The notes below the pieces were generated by a model. That model was not told the origin of the DNA, made no database searches, and saw nothing but the letters and a program-made list of their open reading frames with translations. This document shows positions 4,061 through 55,981 of a stretch of DNA of 64,000 nucleotides, in pieces. This DNA comes from Nitrospirales bacterium. GTDB lineage: Bacteria > Nitrospirota > Nitrospiria > Nitrospirales > UBA8639. Made by a program: the position numbers and the translations under genes. The stretch is from assembly GCA_021604105.1 (NCBI GenBank), contig BQIW01000011.1:1-64000 (forward strand), written 5' to 3'. Every line of letters begins with the position of its first letter. Within the stretch, counting starts at the first letter, position 1.

Positions 4061-4151
4061 AACTCAATCTCCTTTTTGGTGAAATGGAGGAATTGTCGCC
4101 CTTATTCTCTCATGTTACCAAAGCCCATAAGGGTATCAAAAATCTGAATAT

Positions 4152-4342
4152 GGGAGTGTTGAATAATAAGGATGTTCAAGGGCAAATTTGCTTAGGAAGA
4201 GATTACTCATCAAAGGCTCCGGGCCGGTTCAAAAAAGTCCGTCTAGCAAGGCCGCAGCCGTTTTTACGCACGGAACGTACGCTTAGTACGTGAGCACGGG
4301 AAAAGGGCGAGAACGCCGCTGGCGGCTTTTTTCAACAGACCC
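4152..4342 (+). repeat. dispersed MITE-like repeat, copy 1
   Basis: GGGAGTGTTGAATAATAAGG...GCCGCTGGCGGCTTTTTTCAACAGACCC; near-identical to 12949-13139 and 55767-55981; flanked by AATAT (4147-4151) and AATAT (4343-4347). Confidence 0.85.
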
Positions 4343-4407
4343 AATATCACTCCGAACTCCATCACGGTACAGTGGTATGACGGATACTTTTAGGGACTGA
4401 TGTGGTC

Positions 4408-12948: not shown

Positions 12949-13139
12949 GAGCGTGTTGAATAATAAGGATGTTCAAGGGCAAATTTGCGCAGGATGAGAT
13001 TCCTCCTCAAAGGCTCCGGGTCGGTTCAAAAAAGTCCGTCCAGCAAGGCCGAAGCCGTTTGTACGCGCGGAGCGTACGCTGAGTACGTGAACACGGGAAA
13101 ATGGCGAGAACGCCGCTGGCGGCTTTTTTCAACAGACCC
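12949..13139 (+). repeat. dispersed MITE-like repeat, copy 2
   Basis: GAGCGTGTTGAATAATAAGGATGTTCAAGGGC...GCCGCTGGCGGCTTTTTTCAACAGACCC. Confidence 0.85.
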
Positions 13140-55766: not shown

Positions 55767-55981
55767 GGGAGTGTTGAATAATAAGGATGTTCAAGGGCAA
55801 ATTTGCGCAGGATGAGATTCCTCCTCAAAGGCGCCGGGTCGGTTCAAAAAAGCATGCCCTGAGTCTTCCCGAAGGGTTCGTCCAGCAAGGCCGCAGCCGT
55901 TTGTACGCGCGGAGCGTACGCTTCGTACGTGAGCACGGGAAAATGGCGAGAACGCCGCTGGCGGCTTTTTTCAACAGACCC
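55767..55981 (+). repeat. dispersed MITE-like repeat, copy 3 (with 24 extra bp)
   Basis: GGGAGTGTTGAATAATAAGGATGTTCAAGGGC...GCCGCTGGCGGCTTTTTTCAACAGACCC; extra segment at about 55853-55878; flanks CGGCA / TGGCA. Confidence 0.85.

Follow-up and report, generated by a model that had tools for sequence, protein, structure and literature searches.

The repeat at positions 4152 to 4342 is a genuine non-autonomous MITE; its family is new, but the type of element is known. Judging from its ends and flanks, the MITE is very probably moved by an IS5/IS1182-like DDE transposase, which would insert it between genes with a 5-bp target-site duplication.

Copies in the window and their anatomy

The window, that is, the whole stretch of 64,000 nucleotides that was analysed, contains three copies in the same orientation: 4152-4342, 12949(12953)-13139 and 55767-55981. 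An earlier sequence-only reading had described a block of about 191 bp recurring at these places with high identity, imperfect terminal inverted repeats, and identical AATAT pentamers on both sides of copy 1. The coordinates, the inverted repeats and the pentamers were all confirmed, and copies 1 and 2 were identical at 175 of 191 positions. The features are as follows.

4152..4342, plus strand: MITE copy 1, 191 bp, from the repeat alignment and the empty site in relatives
4147..4151, no strand: target-site duplication AATAT, left of copy 1
4343..4347, no strand: target-site duplication AATAT, right of copy 1
4152..4166, plus strand: left terminal repeat GGGAGTGTTGAATAA, nearly matching the partner IS at its left end (GGGACTGTTGAATAA)
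4167..4220, plus strand: left arm, about 54 bp, almost unconstrained in sequence and about constant in length
4221..4342, plus strand: quasi-palindromic core, 122 bp, from the internal GGGNN[T/G]GTTCAAAAAA to the right end, with strong covariation
4328..4342, minus strand: right terminal repeat GGGTCTGTTGAAAAA, nearly matching the partner IS at its right end (GGGGCTGTTGAAAAA)
12949..13139, plus strand: MITE copy 2, left end degenerate (GAGCGTG), without a clear duplication
55767..55981, plus strand: MITE copy 3, of the 215-bp subfamily, whose core carries a 24-bp insert on its left

The anatomy is asymmetric: a left end and a left arm of about 54 bp are followed by a 122-bp quasi-palindrome that ends in the right terminal repeat. 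Neither this asymmetry nor the nested hairpin core appeared in the sequence-only reading. Terminal inverted repeats of the form GGGNNTGTTGAA[T/A]AA were found at both ends in most of 31 copies. At copy 2, where the left end has mutated to GAGCGTG, the flanks ATAGA/TTGGA match at three of five positions; the flanks of copy 3, CGGCA/TGGCA, match at four of five, which the earlier reading had missed. At 191 or 215 bp the element is short and carries no transposase gene. No ORF longer than 69 aa overlaps copy 1, and the 69-aa ORF begins outside the element. Copies belonging to the 215-bp subfamily are common in the genome. In another repeat (L054:1246), too, GGGAGTATTGAAAAAT was followed by the motif CATGCCCTGAGTC.

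Copy number and distribution

The genome (4.9 Mb, 217 contigs) contained at least 40 full copies at 90% identity or more (40 of 187 candidates scored). The exact end motif GGGNNTGTTGAANAA was counted 229 times and its reversed control 2 times, which suggests that the genome holds about a hundred copies. Given this excess of end motifs and the blastn matches between the window copies (E 1e-64 to 1e-76), the repeat is not a product of chance. Contigs with the core were labelled nearly all as Nitrospirota/Nitrospirales. Two contigs labelled Nitrosomonas sp. OFTM190 (L185 and L191) also bear the core; since core-bearing Nitrospirales are found among the same OFTM-series bins, mis-binning is as likely as transfer. 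The plasmid collection had no match to the MITE, and a literature search returned no relevant paper on a Nitrospira MITE.

Target-site duplications and empty sites

A genome-wide copy search and flank alignment, which the sequence-only reading had proposed, gave consistent end points. Over 31 copies aligned with their flanks, the start and stop bases were identical while the targets varied from copy to copy. The 5-bp flanks at offset 0 matched exactly in 18 of the 31 and at four or more of five positions in 26; other offsets yielded at most 1 exact and 3 near-exact matches, and randomly re-paired flanks gave means of 0.7 and 2.0. Of 82 cases, 64 had a duplication (at least 4/5 match) at the element's outer left end, and none of 91 had one at the core boundary, indicating that the whole element is the mobile unit.

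Empty orthologous sites, also suggested by that reading, were sought for copy 1 by joining both flanks with a single AATAT and searching relatives. Two relatives had the uninterrupted site: G004, with 82% identity over 502 bp and no gap at the junction, and G005, with 90% over 291 bp. For a second copy (L015) there was an empty site in Nitrospirales OFTM334. A third (L012) was probably inherited, because the orthologous place in G019 also has a copy. The empty-site match for copy 3 was weak (70% identity). None of the 31 copies lay inside a long ORF, and no rule was found in the orientation of the genes around them. The fixed ends, the 5-bp duplications and the empty sites support the earlier view of a non-autonomous, MITE-like element between genes.

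A candidate partner insertion sequence

A search for DUF772 transposases in the genus led to a locus (L124) flanked by GGGACTGTTGAATAA as a perfect inverted repeat. Its relatives in the order comprise ten IS copies of 1199-1228 bp (about 1.22 kb) with a single transposase, and exact 5-bp duplications flank five of the ten (TATAG, ATAGA, CTTAT, CTTCA and ATGTC). The left end reads GGGACTGTTGAATAATAGGG in the IS and GGGAGTGTTGAATAATAAGG in the MITE; the right end reads GGGGCTGTTGAAAAAAGCGG and GGGTCTGTTGAAAAAAGCCG, respectively. The stretch common to both is short, with 15-20 bp on the left and up to 35 bp, at 80% identity, on the right. From this comparison, the asymmetry between left and right ends is thus also common to IS and MITE. 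The full-length IS with the same ends for which the sequence-only reading had recommended a search therefore exists in relatives, and it agrees with the MITE at both ends and in the length of the duplication.

The partner transposase has DUF772 and DDE_Tnp_1 domains, as in the IS5/IS1182 superfamily. It scored below the curated NCBIfam cut-offs of NF033551 (IS1182; 148.7 vs 270 bits) and NF033581 (IS5_4; 133.4 vs 140 bits). The likely partner is thus an IS5/IS1182-like element, placed in the superfamily only and in neither family. It also differs from IS1272, a member placed in the IS1182 family that replaces stem-loops and makes no target duplication (PMC5678879), in having 5-bp duplications.

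In the genome of the window, the partner was represented by a decayed remnant with stops (C1:4349-4880, 47-59% identical), and no intact copy was found in the 217 contigs; an intact IS could be absent from such an assembly by falling at contig breaks. Because this genome has only the remnant, we infer mobilisation by the partner IS from the shared ends and the duplication length. An IS5/IS1182-like DDE transposase would recognise both ends of the MITE and move it, and a 5-bp staggered cut at an intergenic target would leave the 5-bp duplication. The source transposase in this genome would now be dead or missing.

Other searches turned up further elements. The genome's own DDE_Tnp_1 transposases (PF01609) were rejected as partners, their ends being different. 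We inspected the surroundings of end motifs (38 in relatives, 2 in the genome of the window): the elements there were all miniature, and no convincing long one emerged. Another IS family of the genus, whose ends read GGGCACCTCTAAAAAC, lay near DUF772 transposases at L052, L053, L103, L105 and L120. At L117, L127 and L129 there were IS with (A)GGGYTTGCTGAAAAA ends, which are MITE-like but have different flanking repeats (4-6 bp).

The ends could also have been served by a different transposase that uses GGG ends and makes 5-bp duplications. TIMEs are Tn3-derived miniature elements with a 5-bp duplication, a GGG start and a 38-bp repeat, and the first two of these fit our MITE. Tn3 transposases are present in 4 of 22 genus genomes, but they are missing from most MITE-bearing relatives, and the Tn3 transposase domain (PF01526) had no match in the genome of the window. 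Moreover, the MITE ends share only about 15 bp, against the repeat of about 38 bp in Tn3, while the IS5/IS1182-like IS fits both ends and the duplication length. We therefore regard a different mover, such as a Tn3-type element, as improbable. Spread as a REP/REPIN-type repeat by a RAYT (Y1) transposase is extremely improbable: although the element resembles REPINs and BIMEs in being palindromic, intergenic and present in about a hundred copies, and the genome has one broken, RAYT-type Y1_Tnp gene (G000:C9:36657-37019, L286), 5-bp duplications are the rule here, whereas to our knowledge REPINs and BIMEs are not flanked by target duplications and REP/RAYT spread is expected to give none, and the 191-bp length with defined transposon ends and the empty sites also speak against it.

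Structure and conservation of the hairpin core

Folding was assessed over 38 diverse elements. In the core, 92.9% of cells were paired and 16 pairs had changed on both sides; none of 500 shuffles reached the observed pairing, and slid partners gave 39-44%. The internal dinucleotide after GGG covaried with the terminal dinucleotide before CCC. Since many rows of this alignment (A1) had been fetched by the core pattern, its core conservation is partly biased, and conservation was recomputed on elements located by their ends (14 elements plus copy 1). In that set the mean pairwise difference was 0.63 for the left arm, 0.23 for the core and 0.21 for the left terminal repeat.

Within one genome, private changes were counted in 27 copies of 191 bp, a small sample, and the rates were 0.0158 for the left arm, 0.0132 for the paired core, 0.0104 for the unpaired core and 0.0148 for the terminal repeat. 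Inserted copies thus decay evenly while the lineages that spread keep the core, so that, on these few private changes, propagation and not the individual locus seems to be where the constraint acts. Covariation and an end-like conservation across genera, together with even decay within one genome, lead us to propose, tentatively and with somewhat less than even confidence, that the hairpin core of 122 bp acts in cis as a fold required for propagation, on which the family would depend besides its terminal repeats. It might, for example, be a second transposase site, a host-factor site or an aid to end pairing.

Alternatively, the symmetry could come from arm-to-arm gene conversion of the palindrome and not from selection on pairing. 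Conversion would also make the dinucleotides in the internal GGGNN and the terminal NNCCC covary, but it leaves unexplained the conservation of the core sequence, which equals that of the terminal repeat among the end-chosen elements. Conversion could yield part of the symmetry, though not the core conservation, and as the full account it is rather unlikely.

A further reading makes the core a host element, either a terminator or a structured RNA, selected at each locus and merely spread by transposition. The covariation, the intergenic position and, at the right end, a GC-rich stem with T6 after it agree with this. On the other side, private changes were similar in the paired core and the left arm, orientation relative to genes followed no rule, a promoter and terminator scan around copy 1 flagged nothing in the element, and Rfam holds no family for it. 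Such a host role is, in our judgement, distinctly improbable, and we take a part in propagation as the simplest reading of the core.

Comparison with known MITEs and implications

A close comparison in kind is MITEAba12 of Acinetobacter, which measures 111-114 bp and has 9-bp duplications and a variable centre (PMC6382973). Our MITE is likewise short and geneless, with IS-shared ends, duplications in part of its copies and a parent deduced from its ends. In contrast to MITEAba12, it has 5-bp duplications, a conserved, covarying hairpin core and a variable left arm.

The analysis yields a Nitrospirales MITE family together with its probable IS partner, its end points and the length of its duplications. 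Should movement require the core, the family would offer a tractable DDE-moved MITE whose internal fold matters.
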